IMG/VR virus record: IMGVR_UViG_3300042507_002545
Coordinates: 1 to 64,000 of that record
Source: a virus
DNA: 64,000 nucleotides
Strand: one strand, 5' to 3'
Shown here: positions 16,024 to 60,648 of the stretch, one piece after another
Layout of the letters: every line of letters starts with the position of its first letter
Numbering within the stretch: the first letter of the stretch is position 1
Translations under genes and position numbers: made by a program
The notes under the pieces: model-generated
The model's input: the letters and a program-made list of their open reading frames with translations, nothing else
Told to the model about the DNA's origin: nothing
Databases searched by the model: none

Positions 16024-17376
16024 TTAGGCTGGTATAGTTTTAGGAGGTACTGGAGTGCAGTAGTCTGGGCAAGTATACTCAGTTAATCCTGTACAACCTG
16101 AACCTGCATTCTCCAACCATGCTGTTACAAAATCTTCAAAATCTGTATCGCGACCATCTGTTACAATTTCTAACAAGTACTGATCATTGTCAAATGTTCC
16201 AGTTGGGTTGTTGAAACGTGGCACATTGTGCTGGATATAGTAACGAGTATAGAATGATGTTCTGCTAATTGCATCATATACATCTGTACCGTTAGTAATC
16301 TCACGGATACGCAAGTCTTGACCAGTATAGAAAGGTTGTTGCATGTAACCTTCAGTTAAGATAAGGTCACGGATAACATTTTCTCCTGTTCCTTTTAATT
16401 GAAGTGCATCACAGCTATTGTATACACAAACTCCACCAAATGTACATGGATCACCATTGTTATCTACTTCAGAAGCATAAAGCTTAACTGGCTCTAAGAA
16501 AGCAATGATAGAATCATTTGGGTAGAAAGTACAATCTCCAAAACGAGTATCTTCATAAGCTCCAGTAATGATCAATCCTGCTAAAGTATCTTCAGGAGTA
16601 GCATTAGCTGGTAGAGCAGTTCCACCTAGTACATATGGAAGAAGGTTTTCAACCGATGCATTAGGGTTGTAGTTTGGTCCAAGAGTTGGATTAATAGCAG
16701 CAAGAGCATTCCATGTAGTTCCACCATCAGTTGAGTAAGTAACTGCAACTTGAATGAATGGGTTAATAAGTGGGCTATTCAACAAATCATATGCCCATTT
16801 AGAATAAACAATCAATGGGTTAACAGCTACTGGTGCAATTGAATCTTCTGGGCAACATCCAGTGTAAGCACTTGTAGTGTAGTAATCGTTACGAGTTAAG
16901 AAACGCAATGCTGGAGATCCTTTAATGTCTAAACGCAAATCGTAGTTTTCACCACAATAGAAAGTTTTGTCTACAACAGTTCCTGAGTTAGGATTACAAG
17001 GACCTTCTGTATCCCAGTTGTTTATGTTTGCACCAACTGTAATTTGAGCTTGTTGAGCAGGACAGTCATCAACAACATAGAAAGATGATACATACTTAGG
17101 GTTAATAGTCTTAGACTTTACAGTCTCAGAATATCCACCGTGGAATTTACCAATTTTGTCATTTGGGTGAATAGAAGTTGAAATTAACACTAGAGGACAA
17201 CTTGTAGTTGTTGGTCCCGCTAAGTCAGCTGGTGTTACCCAAGTCTTAGGATCCACAAAAGTAAATTGTCCAGCACGATTTTCTGGAGTAAATGCCGAAC
17301 TAGACAAACCTCCTGTTGTAGTAAACCCATCGGTTCCTACAAACATCTTTTGAAAGGCATGATTAAAATAAGCCAT
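16024..17376 (-). CDS. Abundant virion structural protein, 450 aa
   Basis: Starts MAYFNHAFQKMFVGTDGF and contains SETVKSKTINPKYVSSFYVV and a C-terminal RTSFYTRYYIQHNVPRFN block. It has its own A-rich leader and a strong terminator. Codon choice is more uniform than in neighbours and close to that of the capsid gene, which suggests high expression. Possible roles are a head-decoration, collar or sheath-like protein. The first 40 residues resemble shared N-termini of structural proteins in other Bacteroidetes phages, but I cannot name the family. Confidence 0.6.
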   Translation of the reverse strand: MAYFNHAFQKMFVGTDGFTTTGGLSSSAFTPENRAGQFTFVDPKTWVTPADLAGPTTTSCPLVLISTSIHPNDKIGKFHGGYSETVKSKTINPKYVSSFYVVDDCPAQQAQITVGANINNWDTEGPCNPNSGTVVDKTFYCGENYDLRLDIKGSPALRFLTRNDYYTTSAYTGCCPEDSIAPVAVNPLIVYSKWAYDLLNSPLINPFIQVAVTYSTDGGTTWNALAAINPTLGPNYNPNASVENLLPYVLGGTALPANATPEDTLAGLIITGAYEDTRFGDCTFYPNDSIIAFLEPVKLYASEVDNNGDPCTFGGVCVYNSCDALQLKGTGENVIRDLILTEGYMQQPFYTGQDLRIREITNGTDVYDAISRTSFYTRYYIQHNVPRFNNPTGTFDNDQYLLEIVTDGRDTDFEDFVTAWLENAGSGCTGLTEYTCPDYCTPVPPKTIPA

Positions 17377-32847: not shown

Positions 32848-33201
32848 TTAAGCGCGTTTGCCGTCTTCTTCTCTCTTAGCCTTTATGTAACCTGTTAACT
32901 CAGCAATGTTAGTACTCAATTGAGTCATGTGAGTTGTAAGGTTATCCATCTTTAGATCAAGCTTCTCGTGAGCAGCTTTTTGATCTTCTTTAAGTATTTC
33001 CATTCTATTATAGATGCTTGTCTCTTTAGCCATAAGATCTGTTTCTAGGGAGTCCATATCACCCGTAAGTTTATCTACTTTCCCTCTCAACTTTCCCAGT
33101 TCCTGCTTAAGAGCATAATATGCTGATAAACCTGATCCTATTGTCATCACTATCCAGATAACATCTTTAGTAGTGAACATCCATGCTTCTGCTGATCCCA
33201 T
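32848..33201 (-). CDS. Membrane-anchored coiled-coil protein (holin- or spanin-like), 117 aa
   Basis: One membrane segment at residues 13-32 (VIWIVMTIGSGLSAYYAL) is followed by a long coiled coil (KVDKLTGDMDSLETDLMAKE onward). This layout matches inner-membrane spanins and small holins. It is flanked by its own terminator, which suits a separately timed lysis gene, but the surrounding genes are structural and no endolysin is seen in the window. A virion or membrane-tether role is possible. Confidence 0.45.
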   Translation of the reverse strand: MGSAEAWMFTTKDVIWIVMTIGSGLSAYYALKQELGKLRGKVDKLTGDMDSLETDLMAKETSIYNRMEILKEDQKAAHEKLDLKMDNLTTHMTQLSTNIAELTGYIKAKREEDGKRA

Positions 33202-39907: not shown

Positions 39908-40909
39908 ATGAATAAGATAACCGCTACTGGCAAACTCGCTAAACAGTATCTTAAGAAGTATCCTAGTCTTCCCATCCTTACAATTGCTAAACTTATGTAC
40001 GCTGAAAATGATTTGCACTTTAATAGTGTAGATCATGCACGTTCATTACTTAAGCGTCACTCTGGACTAGGTGGTAAAGAAACCAGAAAGAACGTAGATC
40101 CAGAATTACAAAGACCTATAACATATAACTATGCTCCATTTAATGACATACCAAAATCATATAAGTCTGGACCTAATGACTTTGAATTGCCAAGTGATGC
40201 TAATCACATTCTTGCTCTTTCTGATGTTCACTTTCCTTATCACGATGAAGAAGCTCTTGGTGCTGCTATACAATACGGCATTGATCAAAAGATTAATACG
40301 GTTATTCTCAACGGTGATATTTTAGACTTCTACCAGTTGTCACGGTTTGACAAGGACCCTTCTAAACCTAAGATGCAAGTAGAACTTGAACAAGGTAGAT
40401 GGTTTATGAAAGCACTACGCACAGCATTCCCTAAAGCGAGAATCTATTACAAGATTGGTAACCACGAAGATAGACTTGAAAAGTGGTTAAAGATTAAGGC
40501 GCCAGAATGGATTGGTATGGAGGAGTTTGAGTTAAAGATGTTACTTCGTTTTGGAGAAAACCAAATACAGCTTATCGATTCAAATGCTACAATAAAAGCT
40601 GGTAATCTTAACATTATTCACGGTCATGAATATTTAGGTGGAGGTACTATAAATCCAGCAAGAAATTTGTATCTTAAAGCTAAGGCCAGTACTATTTGCG
40701 GACACTTTCATAGAAAATCAGAGTTTGTTACTCGCGATATCAACAACAATATCCAAGGTGCTTGGACTACAGGTTGTTTATGTGAACTATACCCAGAGTA
40801 CATGAAAGGACACAGCGATTGGGTACATGGTTTTGCGGTTATTAAGATAGAGAAGGATGGCACCTTTTCAGTAGATAACAAAATGATTATTGACGGAGTA
40901 GTATCATAA
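39908..40909 (+). CDS. Calcineurin-like metallophosphoesterase, 333 aa
   Basis: All five metallophosphoesterase motifs are present: D106-x-H108 (SDVHFP), GDxxD (G136-D137, D140), GNHE (N185-H186), IIHGHEY (H238, H240) and GHFH (H266, H268). The N-terminal 60 residues form a small helical region (LAKQYLKKYPSLPILTIAKL) that may bind nucleic acid. Enzymes of this class cut phosphodiester bonds in DNA, RNA or cyclic nucleotides; phage members can process DNA ends or degrade signal nucleotides. It is the first gene of the rightward arm and is transcribed from the divergent region. Confidence 0.8.
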   Translation: MNKITATGKLAKQYLKKYPSLPILTIAKLMYAENDLHFNSVDHARSLLKRHSGLGGKETRKNVDPELQRPITYNYAPFNDIPKSYKSGPNDFELPSDANHILALSDVHFPYHDEEALGAAIQYGIDQKINTVILNGDILDFYQLSRFDKDPSKPKMQVELEQGRWFMKALRTAFPKARIYYKIGNHEDRLEKWLKIKAPEWIGMEEFELKMLLRFGENQIQLIDSNATIKAGNLNIIHGHEYLGGGTINPARNLYLKAKASTICGHFHRKSEFVTRDINNNIQGAWTTGCLCELYPEYMKGHSDWVHGFAVIKIEKDGTFSVDNKMIIDGVVS

Positions 40910-40911
40910 CT

Positions 40912-41133
40912 ATGGCAACAACTATTAGAGCTGGAATTTATATAGACCCACTCAGTGAGGAAGAGTCTACCCCTGAGATCTATATTGATCACAGCATGAT
41001 CCAGATATATAGTCAGGAGGATATCCTTGTTGCCCAAATTAGTTATGAAGAACTCCGCGGTATTTTAGCCATCATGGCGGCGGAACAAGAAAAGACTCAC
41101 CTGCGTATTCAGGCTATTGGTCGGAACAACTAG
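40912..41133 (+). CDS. Hypothetical protein, 73 aa
   Basis: Directly follows the phosphoesterase (2 bp). Acidic beta/alpha protein (GIYIDPLSEEESTPEIYIDH) ending in a helix. No family recognised. The following 1.05 kb is non-coding. Confidence 0.55.
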   Translation: MATTIRAGIYIDPLSEEESTPEIYIDHSMIQIYSQEDILVAQISYEELRGILAIMAAEQEKTHLRIQAIGRNN

Positions 41134-41214
41134 TCTTGTAACAAATTTAGCGTAAAATTGTTACCACACTAAAGTATGTTTTAGCAGTCATTAACCCCAG
41201 TTTTCTGGATAATG

Positions 41215-41392
41215 TATAGTATACCATACTATAATGTGGTTTATAAGAAACAAAAAACCTCAGTTTTATACCCTGTAAGGGACATTATCATGTATAGAGA
41301 GTATACTCCGTACCTCTCCGGGTACGTTTTATAGTATTGATGTCAGGATAAACCTGGCACCATTGATATGAGATAGATGTTATAAACCACAT
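41215..41392 (+). ncRNA. Candidate structured RNA A
   Basis: Closed by a perfect 13-bp stem (ATGTGGTTTATAA at 41234-41246 with its complement at 41380-41392). Inside are CGTACC/GGTACG, a GAGTATACTC palindrome and CAGG/CCTG hairpins. A perfect 8-bp hairpin (41215-41233) lies just before. The multi-branch form and lack of coding potential suggest an RNA rather than a DNA site; strand is assumed from the neighbouring genes. No Rfam family recognised. Confidence 0.45.
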
Positions 41393-41407
41393 CTGTCACA
41401 AATATGT

Positions 41408-41531
41408 TAAACTTTTGTGACAAGCTTGATGGGTACTGGAGGGGTACTTGGGGGAAAGTATAGTAAACTTTTGCGACAGCTATAGTGGAAAATAATCACC
41501 AGAATCAGGCTTTTAGTGGAAAATAATCCCC
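41408..41531. repeat. Two nested sets of direct repeats (iteron-like)
   Basis: TAAACTTTTG(T/C)GACA at 41408-41422 and 41464-41478; TAGTGGAAAATAATC(A/C)CC at 41483-41500 and 41514-41531. Spacings are 56 and 31 bp. Pairs of short direct repeats next to AT-rich and palindromic DNA resemble an origin region, but with two copies each this is not strong. Confidence 0.5.
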
Positions 41532-41717
41532 AACTCCCTTGCGCTAATCCGCCATTACTGGAAAATTTTAGGAGTATTGGCGAACTATAGAGTGCCAAAC
41601 TCTGTAACAAAACATGGACAAACTCGGAAGTTTACCGAGTTACCCCCTATAATTTTGCATGAATTTTTCCAGATTTTGCATGCAGATACATATAGTATTG
41701 CCACATGAGCCCATATT

Positions 41718-41793
41718 TATATGTAGGAGCATATAGGGAGAATGTCCAGTTTTTTGCGCAATAAACTTGACACCTTTGGTTCTCCTACATATA
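41718..41793. repeat. Nested inverted repeat with 12-bp arms
   Basis: TATATGTAGGAG (41718-41729) pairs with its complement at 41782-41793. A second stem inside (TGTCCAGTTT with AAACTTGACA, one mismatch) surrounds the TTGCGCAA palindrome. A long hairpin with an internal loop; an RNA or DNA stem-loop site are both possible. Confidence 0.5.
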
Positions 41794-42157
41794 CCCCCCT
41801 AGGGAAGTAGACAATCAACATACCCCCGGTAGTAAGGTTAGGTGGGGACACCCCCGGGAGGATGGTGTAGGGAATTTTTTATGGGGGTAGGGGATTTATA
41901 ATGTGGGAGATGATGTGAGGGGTATACAACAAATCAACCCCCGGCTTTAAACTTTTTAGGGGGTACCCCCCATGAAATTTGAAACATTTCATTTAAAAGT
42001 TGAAATCCAAAGAAAACATTTTGCTATGTAGAAAATGTTTATACGTCATATAACTATGACATGCTTGATTTGAGTTGCACAACAAAGACTTGAGTTGTTG
42101 TGTTGTGCCACCCGACCCCGACCACCACCCCTAGATATGTTGCAAGCAACATCATTG

Positions 42158-42179
42158 ATACAACATATCATTCATAATC
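42158..42179 (+). promoter_or_regulatory. Promoter-like motif P1
   Basis: ATACAACATATC followed by ATTCATAATC, 8 bp upstream of the 42188 start. Similar copies precede the next three genes. P1 is also one arm of a dyad: GATATGTTG at 42134-42142 complements CAACATATC at 42161-42169. Confidence 0.55.
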
Positions 42180-42187
42180 TTAAGATA

Positions 42188-42391
42188 ATGAATAACTTTT
42201 TAAACTCGCTAGTAGGTCATACTGACCTATACCAAGCTAAAAAGCAGGTGATTCGTGAAATCATTGCTTTCACCAAGTTTCCCAAATCACGCACAAGCCG
42301 TGAATTTCTTTGGGGCAAAGACATTCAAGAGCTTGCGGCAATGCACCGTGAGCTATTGACATACCAAACGGTGCAATTGGAAATCGCTTAG
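42188..42391 (+). CDS. Small protein, 67 aa
   Basis: MNNFLNSLVGHTDLYQAKKQ then KFPKSRTSREFLWGKDIQEL; helical and basic. The start is set at 42188 because the longer frame begins in repeat DNA. The TAG stop lies in the loop of the following terminator. It forms a one-gene unit with its own P1 motif. Function unknown. Confidence 0.6.
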   Translation: MNNFLNSLVGHTDLYQAKKQVIREIIAFTKFPKSRTSREFLWGKDIQELAAMHRELLTYQTVQLEIA

Positions 42392-42404
42392 GCGATTTCT
42401 TTTT
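42380..42404 (+). terminator. Terminator overlapping the stop of the 67-aa gene
   Basis: GAAATCGC and GCGATTTC form an 8-bp stem with loop TTAG, then a T-rich run. The loop contains the TAG stop codon of the gene. Confidence 0.85.
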
Positions 42405-42447: not shown

Positions 42448-42630
42448 ATGAAAAAGTTCATGTTAATCATTACAATTATCGCATGGCTAGACAGCCTTGC
42501 GCTAATCTTCATTACTAACACTTTGCCGCATATTAGCAGTAAACCATTCGTGAATGGCTTCCTGATATTCTGCGCAGGATTCATCTCGTACTTGATATAC
42601 TATCAATTACGCGATATGAGAAAGGCTTAG
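42448..42630 (+). CDS. Small membrane protein, 60 aa
   Basis: Two membrane segments (residues 4-24 and 35-52: MLIITIIAWLDSLALIFITN and GFLIFCAGFISYLIYYQL) with a short loop and a basic end (RDMRKA). Own promoter-like motif and own terminator. Could be a host membrane modulator or superinfection factor; function not known. Confidence 0.6.
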   Translation: MKKFMLIITIIAWLDSLALIFITNTLPHISSKPFVNGFLIFCAGFISYLIYYQLRDMRKA

Positions 42631-42648
42631 GCCTTTCTCTTTTCTTTT
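42618..42648 (+). terminator. Terminator overlapping the stop of the 60-aa gene
   Basis: GAGAAAGGC and GCCTTTCTC form a 9-bp stem with TTAG loop, again holding the TAG stop codon, followed by TTTTCTTTT. Confidence 0.85.
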
Positions 42649-46293: not shown

Positions 46294-46415
46294 GCACATG
46301 AAAGAATGAATCAGCACTGTAAAAAAATTACAATGCACGAGACAATAAAAGTCTCAAGGGAAAGGTAGGCCACAACAAGTTAGTTGTTAGGCTCTCTTCA
46401 TTCTGTTGTATGTGC
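46294..46415 (+). ncRNA. Structured RNA repeat 3 (expanded)
   Basis: Outer stem GCACAT/ATGTGC (46294-46299 / 46410-46415), loop GAAA/TGTTGT, inner stem GAATGAA/TTCATTC (46304-46310 / 46397-46403), core TCAGCACTGTAAAAAAATTA. The core carries two extra hairpins (GAGAC/GTCTC and ACAAC/GTTGT). It ends 68 bp before the start of the TROVE-like gene. Confidence 0.65.
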
Positions 46416-46483
46416 AAAAGCCTAGTAGTGATACTCGTGGCCTGCCAATCTTAAATTATTGTTTAACCAAAACCCTTTACGCA

Positions 46484-47872
46484 ATGGATAATTTTACCAA
46501 CGCAATGTTTTCTAATGATAGTCTTACCAATAACGGCGCAGTTACTCATAGTACTGCAGGTAATTACTGTCTTGACCTGTTCTTTTTAGCAGGTGCGAGC
46601 CGTTTTATGTCTGAAGAAGATATCTTAAAAGCATTTATCAAGGCTTATCGTGAAGATAAGTTAACTGCTATTAAGATTCTATTTTGGGCACGCGATGCAC
46701 GTGGTGGTGCAGGGGAGAAGAGATTCTTCCAAGTGATAATGAGAAATCTATTAGTAGCAGACCCTGAAGTATATGAGCAAATTGCTATACATATACCAAC
46801 GTTTGGCTATTGGAAAGATATATTCATCATTGAAAGACCAACTGATAATACCCTTAATTGGTTGAGTATTCAACTGAAAGAGAATGAGAATGCTAATCTA
46901 TTGGCTAAATGGTTCCCTCGCAAGGGTGAATGGTTTGTGGCAATGCATAAGTATCTTGGTGTATCAGCAGGTACATTCCGTAGAAGACTTACTTCTATGT
47001 CTAATACCGTAGAGCAAAAGATGTGTGCTAATGATTGGGAATCTATTTCTTATTCACAAGTACCTTCTGTTGCAGGTAAGAGATATGCCCAGTCCTTTAC
47101 TAAACACGATTATGTAAGATACGCCTCTTATATTAGCGATGTTATGGAAGGTAAGGAGAAGATTAATGCTTCAGTATTATTCCCAAGTGACCTTGTAGCA
47201 AAAGTATTTACAGAGCATGATACCTTTGCATACAATGCTATGTGGAAGAATCTTCCTAACTATATGGAAGGTTGTACTGAAAGAATCTTACCTGTTTGCG
47301 ATGTTAGTGGTAGTATGACGGGACAACCTATGGAAGTATCTATAGGATTGGGCCTCTATATCAGTGAGCGCAATGAAGGTCCTTTCAAGGATTTAGTGTT
47401 GACATTTAGTGAATCACCGCAATTTCATAAGATAAGCGGTATGACATTAAGTGAGAAAGCACATAATCTTAGACAGGCTGATTGGGGTATGAATACGGAT
47501 TTAACCAAAACATTCACAGTGTTACTAGATCGTGCTGTTGCAGGTAAAGTAGCACAGGAAGATATGCCTACCAAGTTACTGATTATTAGTGACATGGAGT
47601 TTGACCAAGCCTGTGGTAAGCGTACTAACTTTGATACTATCAAGGATATGTATGCACACTGCGGTTATGAGATGCCGGGTATAATCTTTTGGAATGTTAA
47701 TGGTCGCCTCGGTAATGTACCTGTGAAGGCTAACACACCAAACACTGCCCTTGTTAGCGGGTATAGTCCAAGTATTATTACAAATATCTTGGGCGGTAAG
47801 GATTTGAGTCCTATAAGTGTGATGATGGAAACTATTGGCAATGTGAGATACAACTGTATCAAACTTGACTAA
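46484..47872 (+). CDS. TROVE-like/DUF2828 protein with C-terminal vWA domain, 462 aa
   Basis: The N-terminal two thirds look like the helical-repeat ring of TROVE/DUF2828 proteins: TNNGAVTHSTAGNYCLDLFF, ILFWARDARGGAGEKRFFQ and HIPTFGYWKDI. The C-terminal vWA domain has an intact MIDAS: DVSGSMTG (D273, S275, S277), a Thr in MNTDLT and ISDMEFD (D370). TROVE proteins such as Ro60 bind Y RNAs and misfolded RNAs through the ring. I set the start at 46484; an upstream TTG lies in RNA repeat 3. Family call rests on these motifs; RNA binding is inferred. Its own terminator follows. Confidence 0.75.
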   Translation: MDNFTNAMFSNDSLTNNGAVTHSTAGNYCLDLFFLAGASRFMSEEDILKAFIKAYREDKLTAIKILFWARDARGGAGEKRFFQVIMRNLLVADPEVYEQIAIHIPTFGYWKDIFIIERPTDNTLNWLSIQLKENENANLLAKWFPRKGEWFVAMHKYLGVSAGTFRRRLTSMSNTVEQKMCANDWESISYSQVPSVAGKRYAQSFTKHDYVRYASYISDVMEGKEKINASVLFPSDLVAKVFTEHDTFAYNAMWKNLPNYMEGCTERILPVCDVSGSMTGQPMEVSIGLGLYISERNEGPFKDLVLTFSESPQFHKISGMTLSEKAHNLRQADWGMNTDLTKTFTVLLDRAVAGKVAQEDMPTKLLIISDMEFDQACGKRTNFDTIKDMYAHCGYEMPGIIFWNVNGRLGNVPVKANTPNTALVSGYSPSIITNILGGKDLSPISVMMETIGNVRYNCIKLD

Positions 47873-59920: not shown

Positions 59921-60194
59921 AATTAAGATTAAGATTGTACTTGACCCAAACTTTGGCGAGGTGCAATTTGAAATAGAAGAAACTAATATTAAGAACAAGT
60001 GTCTATTTGATGCATTATCCGAACATGGTATTGAGCTTGAAAGAGCTAAGTATATTGCACAAGATATGGCCAAGTGTACAAACACTGGTAAGTTTTATCA
60101 TTTAGAACCAATAGATTATGTAAAATATGGCAGAGAAAGACGTTATGAAGCTGAGGAGCAATATCAGGCAAGATTTGGCCCAGCTAAACTATGA
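59889..60194 (+). CDS. Hypothetical protein, 101 aa
   Basis: Overlaps UDG by 32 bp and the DnaA-like gene by 68 bp. A beta start (GRIKIKIVLDPNFGEVQFEI) and a helical charged end (YGRERRYEAEEQYQARFG). Unknown. Confidence 0.5.
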   Translation: MRKDENPYPGRIKIKIVLDPNFGEVQFEIEETNIKNKCLFDALSEHGIELERAKYIAQDMAKCTNTGKFYHLEPIDYVKYGRERRYEAEEQYQARFGPAKL

Positions 60195-60648
60195 TCTGAA
60201 TTTAGTTATCTCTAAGTTCTTTAGTAGTATCCAACAAGATTTGAATAAGTATGATAAATACATAGGTGATTGCCATGCAATTATACCTGGCATAGATAAC
60301 TTCAACGTTGTAGTCAACTTAGCTGAAGAACTTTATCCTGATGATAAACCTTTTACTGACAACATGAAAGTTCGTAAACAACAAGTTATTATCATAAGAC
60401 AATGTTGTTACTTGATAGGTAATGAACTTGGTTTAAGTTATTCTCATATGGTAAGAGTTCTTAATGACATGCATAAAGAGAAAGTTACACATCATGCTAC
60501 TATGTTGCATGGTGCTAAGAAAACTCGTATTGCATTAGAAATCAAAGACAAAAGTGTATTACCTATATGGAGTAACTTAATGTCTAAGATGCAAGAGAGA
60601 AATTATTCAAAATCATTTGTATCTTTAGAGTCTATAGACAAGTTATGA
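60127..60648 (+). CDS. DnaA-domain-IV-like protein, 173 aa
   Basis: Residues 88-132 (IIIRQCCYLIGNELGLSYSH, then HHATMLHGAKK) resemble DnaA domain IV, which binds DnaA boxes through a helix-turn-helix and the H-x-T-V-x-H-A-like signature. The N-terminal part is helical and lacks an AAA+ domain. It may mark a phage origin or hijack host DnaA sites. Family call is moderate. Confidence 0.55.
   Translation: MAEKDVMKLRSNIRQDLAQLNYDLNLVISKFFSSIQQDLNKYDKYIGDCHAIIPGIDNFNVVVNLAEELYPDDKPFTDNMKVRKQQVIIIRQCCYLIGNELGLSYSHMVRVLNDMHKEKVTHHATMLHGAKKTRIALEIKDKSVLPIWSNLMSKMQERNYSKSFVSLESIDKL

Follow-up and report, generated by a model that had tools for sequence, protein, structure and literature searches.

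Iteron origins of plasmids and phages, for example lambda ori with its O protein, carry repeats that lie about 20-22 bp apart. The consensus DnaA box, represented by R5, reads TTTTCCACA (PMC5835720). For crAss-like phages, the start of replication is unsettled in the open-licence literature. The one origin given there is a software prediction: in the zeta crAss-like phage Lera, an oriC assigned by Ori-Finder serves as the starting point for counting two large gene blocks (PMC12386605). Here we describe a repeat-dense viral region for which the replication origin of a crAss-like phage is the best single explanation, with a probability of about 0.5 in our estimate.

The window, that is, the whole stretch of 64,000 nucleotides analyzed, comprises bases 1-64000 of a 98-kb viral contig. 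A crAss-type capsid protein is encoded (PF23898, E=9e-32), and portal and terminase large subunit were found on the contig by PHROG match. Judged from these three predicted proteins, the source contig is a crAss-like phage (Crassvirales). Leftward late genes extend up to 39902, and the rightward genes start with a phosphoesterase gene and a gene for a 73-aa protein. The region and its elements are as follows.

41134 to 42187, no strand: gene-free, repeat-dense control region with a sharp conserved left edge and good conservation in relatives to about 41740
41137 to 41165, no strand: 29-bp P1-type palindrome, TGTAACAA...TTGTTACC, which relatives retain at the left edge
41394 to 41422, no strand: P1 palindrome, TGTCACAAATATGTTAAACTTTTGTGACA, with 9-bp arms
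41450 to 41478, no strand: P1 palindrome beside the core, its end 6 bp ahead of box 1; in the window its left half has decayed, whereas the right half, TTTTGCGACA, is intact
41485 to 41497, plus strand: box 1, GTGGAAAATAATC, complement GATTATTTTCCAC, DnaA-box-like
41498 to 41515, plus strand: conserved linker, ACCAGAATCAGGCTTTTA, unconstrained by the search that recovered the core
41516 to 41528, plus strand: box 2, GTGGAAAATAATC, 31 bp from box 1
41558 to 41566, plus strand: degenerate third box, CTGGAAAAT, 42 bp from box 2
41621 to 41641, no strand: downstream palindrome, AACTCGG-N7-CCGAGTT, which recurs in other lineages

The preliminary description of this DNA had called the region repeat-dense and gene-free, and this was borne out. 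We counted inverted repeats with perfect arms and a loop of up to 20 and compared the counts with 200 dinucleotide shuffles and with 194 equal windows of the contig. The excess is significant: 16 repeats with arms of 6 were observed (6.1 +/- 2.5 in the shuffles) and five with arms of 8 (0.47 in the shuffles). None of the 200 shuffles reached the observed count, and only 2 of the 194 contig windows equalled or beat the arm-8 count. The longest nearby direct repeat measures 15 nt, compared to a shuffle maximum of 13. Both sets of direct repeats noticed earlier are real: TAGTGGAAAATAATC(A/C)CC corresponds to the box pair at 41485 and 41516, and TAAACTTTTG(T/C)GACA is the right half of the 29-bp palindrome. 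No conserved gene was detected. There is no ORF of more than 67 aa inside 41134-42094, i.e., before the first cassette gene, and no tRNA was found in 41134-42187. A coding function of the core was rejected, since the codon pattern misfits and no ORF is conserved across it. Further to the right, terminator-like hairpins at 42379-42400 and 42618-42639 contain the stop codons of small cassette genes and precede similar upstream sequences of the AATACAACATAT type.

AT-rich DNA, which the preliminary description counts among the common features of origins, is not a property of this region: its GC content is 38.6%, compared to 35.2% for the contig. The 100-bp blocks of lowest GC (30%) lie about 200-500 bp from the boxes, and no AT-rich unwinding element, as expected for an oriC-type origin, was found adjoining them.

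Relatives were collected via the phosphoesterase. The left edge of the region is exact, as the alignments of the relatives resume at base 41134 after inserts of variable length, which measure up to several hundred bases between this position and the 73-aa gene. From 41134 to about 41740 the sequence is widely conserved, whereas good conservation of the G/C-run part (about 41795-42187) is limited to L004, the closest relative. A lack of conservation of the repeats, named as a refuting condition in the preliminary description, was not seen in the crAss-like genomes, where the repeats are strongly conserved. The G/C-run block at 41795-42000 contains palindromes of the GGGGGTACCCCCC type. The left-edge palindrome was found in a single copy per genome, so that a site-specific inversion between two such copies was dismissed. 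In four relatives (G002, G003, G005, and G018), the phosphoesterase and 73-aa pair (39908-41133) has changed place and been flipped with respect to the element, and it always reads toward the element. In crAss-like genomes the element sits at the divergence point of late and early genes, and it keeps this position even in those relatives from which the pair has moved away. Since it stays put while its neighbors move or invert, the element is a unit of its own.

The most conserved part of the element is ATxGTGGAAAATAATCnnCAGAATnAGGCTTxTxGTGGAAAATAATC, with two boxes 31 bp apart. A two-box pattern allowing a gap of 12-24 recovered 63 viral stretches from IMG/VR, and the spacing was 31 bp in 63 of the 64 pattern matches, the exception being 30. 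This pattern prescribes both boxes, which makes their invariance among its matches a matter of construction; in further scans, one box was left free. Searching by the linker returned 24 distinct matches, each of which has the first box at the unchanged distance; the third base of this box is either G or A. The A, present in 11 of the 24 distinct copies, departs from the DnaA consensus at a conserved C. Searching by the neighboring palindrome gave 17 distinct matches, 14 of which have the second box 31 bp away. All scans together gave about 85 IMG/VR carrier contigs from several unrelated phage lineages. The degenerate third box of the window is intact in two carriers (G008 and G023), at 32-33 bp.

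Each of the long genomes checked has a single twin-box core. In almost all carriers, the core is the sole site at which two TTWTCCAC words lie no more than 120 bp apart; G018, in which the first box reads GTAGAAAATA, is negative by this test. In 257 Gb of bacterial and archaeal genomes the twin pattern does not occur, and a relaxed single-box pattern gave one match, in a Bacillota genome (L337), which lacks a second box and appears to be due to chance. Annotated phages (the GenBank phages searched) and plasmids gave no core match, just short chance matches. Repeats of the type III antitoxin or CRISPR kind were rejected as an interpretation, since the twin pattern has no host counterpart in the 257 Gb. 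Among weak profile matches, L076 and L053, with boxes 31-32 bp apart and a diverged linker, may be distant members and were retained as such, whereas the matches in L047, L067, and L068 overlap coding sequence.

The element is composite: one or more P1 palindromes are followed by two to three 13-bp boxes in the same orientation and then by another palindrome. In many elements, six bases separate box 1 from the end of the 29-bp palindrome TGTCnCAA-N13-TTGnGACA. Its variable pair occurs as G-C, A-T, T-A, and C-G, with six double changes compared to 1.5 in shuffles. This matching is modest evidence for selection on a hairpin or a dyad, since only one pair varies. A second palindrome, AAYTCGG-N7-CCGARTT, follows the boxes in several lineages. 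The submodules are present or absent in a mosaic fashion across the carriers, and the P1 loop was found in both orientations. Together with the shifts of the phosphoesterase and 73-aa pair in place and orientation relative to the element, these observations could point to a mobile or recombination-prone palindromic module that spreads between phages with common hosts. We consider this improbable, since one copy per genome, the exact spacing, and the conserved linker indicate a constrained function; moreover, no transposase was recognized nearby, and the core is absent from bacterial genomes.

Many hairpins could be drawn in the region, and the preliminary description had mentioned an RNA cluster. 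Such non-coding RNAs might be partners of the Ro60/TROVE-like protein encoded nearby, a member of an RNA-binding protein family, or decoys against host defence. Little positive evidence for this view emerged, and we give it scant credence: a gathering scan of the window matched no Rfam family, the variable bases of the core pair with nothing that varies, and the spacing of the boxes by whole helix turns points to double-stranded DNA. An RNA hairpin (GUGGA...UCUAC) or a pseudoknot formed by the core was likewise rejected, as the variable bases have no covarying partners. The gene in question (46406-47872) encodes a DUF2828/DUF7788 protein of an RNA-binding PHROG family, and nearby gene-free stretches could hide partner RNAs.

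Among the carriers are crAss-like phages from three or more groups. In other carriers the element lies right behind terL or within a structural module. Across 50 distinct contexts, the nearest long flanking proteins belong to 45 unrelated families, which argues for a genome-level function and not for control of one gene. A neighboring gene or regulator common to all lineages was sought and rejected. The main rival to a replication origin is nevertheless a transcription-control hub, in which boxes and palindromes would be operators or promoter elements switching early versus late transcription. The divergent position in crAss-like genomes, the dense dyad-symmetric sites, and the orientation of the element, which agrees with that of the closest long gene to the right in 33 of 41 scored contexts, would all suit such a hub. 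But the downstream genes are unrelated from lineage to lineage, the element lies between convergent genes in L190 and L199, and promoter-like matches are at chance level in a scan for sigma-70-type promoters only. We regard a hub as unlikely, if still worth serious attention.

A packaging initiation site (pac), also raised in the preliminary description, gained little positive evidence and seems highly improbable to us. The element is located directly 3' of terL in one lineage, but its position relative to this gene is not fixed: in the window the distance to terL is 13 kb, and other gene contexts are found elsewhere. In addition, the assemblies of several relatives are circular, with a short redundancy at the ends, and do not point to a fixed end at the element.

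Two further proteins were noticed in the carriers. Of 15 genomes that bear the element, from phages that otherwise differ, 12 encode a protein of roughly 50 aa ending in CLYCGS (among others at 16933-17082 in G054, 69421-69573 in G048, and 32848-32997 in G023). Left of the element in one lineage (L178, L190, L195, and L199), a protein of about 206 aa has, judged by eye, the look of a GIY-YIG nuclease with an XRE-type HTH.

A skew minimum near the region had been proposed as a check of the origin. In five complete circular crAss-like genomes, the cumulative raw GC skew is lowest at a point no more than 1.6 kb from the element; in the other crAss-like records this distance is up to about 3 kb, the exception being G047, a more distant crAss-like contig (6.4 kb). 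In the five circular genomes, the skew maximum lies at about 30%, not 50%, of the genome. The skew at third codon positions tracks the coding strand on both arms, and no consistent flip was seen in intergenic DNA near the element. The head-on phosphoesterase gene shows a weaker or reversed skew, which hints at a share of replication, though this is a single gene. In carriers outside the crAss-like phages, either the distance between the element and the skew minimum or direction switch is 3-14 kb, or the genome is one-directional. The skew minimum is thus at or near the element in most crAss-like genomes and not in the other carriers. Since the skew follows the coding strand and the element is off the minimum in these other carriers, the skew is no proof of an origin; it is compatible with one but does not decide.

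Replication genes of the window include a candidate for a protein acting at this site.

60127 to 60648, plus strand: proposed initiator, 173 aa, with a DnaA domain-IV fold at residues about 56-159 after a long N-terminal helix
61431 to 62429, plus strand: DnaB-like replicative helicase, the second gene after the proposed initiator

The 173-aa protein has no match to PF08299 (DnaA domain IV) at the curated family score in Pfam, being too diverged. It matches the PHROG "replication initiation protein" with E=1e-4, and its profile matches phage PF08299 proteins with E=1.1e-6 and a probability of 91%. A single-sequence structure model was too poor, so an alignment-based model was used instead (24 sequences, pLDDT 76.6, higher over the domain). 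This predicted structure aligns over 93-94 residues with 3pvp_B (Z 13.0) and 1j1v_A (Z 12.3), both DnaA domain IV with DnaA-box DNA, the next unrelated match being at 5.1. The best four Foldseek matches are all DnaA. The protein is thus predicted to have the DnaA domain-IV fold.

A homologue is conserved in all seven class A genomes, and most long carriers outside class A encode small PF08299 proteins. In G014, a DnaA_C protein is encoded before DnaB, at the corresponding place. However, the syntenic proteins of G014 and G015 occur without the twin-box core, and DnaA domain-IV proteins are present in 15 of 21 control related phages without the core, which weakens the co-occurrence of DnaA_C and core as specific evidence. 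The gene lies 18.6 kb from the element. The complement of the boxes contains the DnaA-box core TTTTCCAC; the window boxes match the DnaA box at 8 of 9 positions (TTTTCCACT), and some relatives hold one perfect box, TTTTCCACA. At least three DnaA boxes (TTWTNCACA), typical of oriC-type origins, were not found in the window, which has two 8/9 boxes and a degenerate one. The DnaA-box identity is therefore only partial. Since domain-IV proteins also occur in core-less phages, the pairing of the element with this protein is put forward as a hypothesis.

The preliminary description had named a replication origin as its first reading, and of its three readings this is the one supported: the repeats are strongly conserved, and the skew minimum near the element in crAss-like genomes is compatible with it. 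The box spacings of 31, 32, or 42 bp correspond to about whole helix turns. The proposed initiator, perhaps together with host DnaA, could bind the boxes side by side on one helix face and bend or open nearby DNA. The phage DnaB would be loaded at the opened site, and replication would start and proceed along the diverging late and early arms. For the steps from sequence to binding to initiation, we rely on inference from the sequence.

More tentatively, we suggest that the element represents an origin family, not described before, of phages from the environment that probably infect Bacteroidota. As a portable unit, the twin-box element would have been passed between unrelated phages, including crAss-like ones. 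Its partners would be phage-encoded DnaA domain-IV proteins devoid of the ATPase domain, which would separate the initiator function from the classical DnaA machine. The open-licence full texts searched describe neither the twin-box element nor, for crAss-like phages, an initiator of the DnaA domain-IV type. The result offers a precise 51-bp core and a candidate initiator; it suggests that one replication signal is common to unrelated phages and that phages took over DnaA-type DNA binding without the ATPase part.

The Lera oriC is likewise a predicted origin in a crAss-like phage, but is a software prediction only and, in the part of the article at hand, comes without a described conserved element or initiator protein (PMC12386605). 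Like the DnaA-dependent bacterial oriC, the phage element has clustered boxes in the same orientation, the complement of which, TTTTCCAC(A/T), resembles R5, TTTTCCACA (PMC5835720). Also in common are a DnaA-type DNA-binding domain and DnaB encoded together and, in most crAss-like genomes, a skew minimum near the site. In contrast to oriC, the phage element has only two to three boxes, a longer motif (GATTATTTTCYAC), and no AT-rich unwinding element, and its candidate initiator lacks the AAA+ domain. With iteron origins the element shares short direct repeats at helical spacing together with inverted repeats, the single copy, and a phage-encoded DNA-binding protein. It differs from them in that the repeats are 31 bp apart, the protein has a predicted DnaA fold, and the site lies neither inside nor beside the initiator gene.
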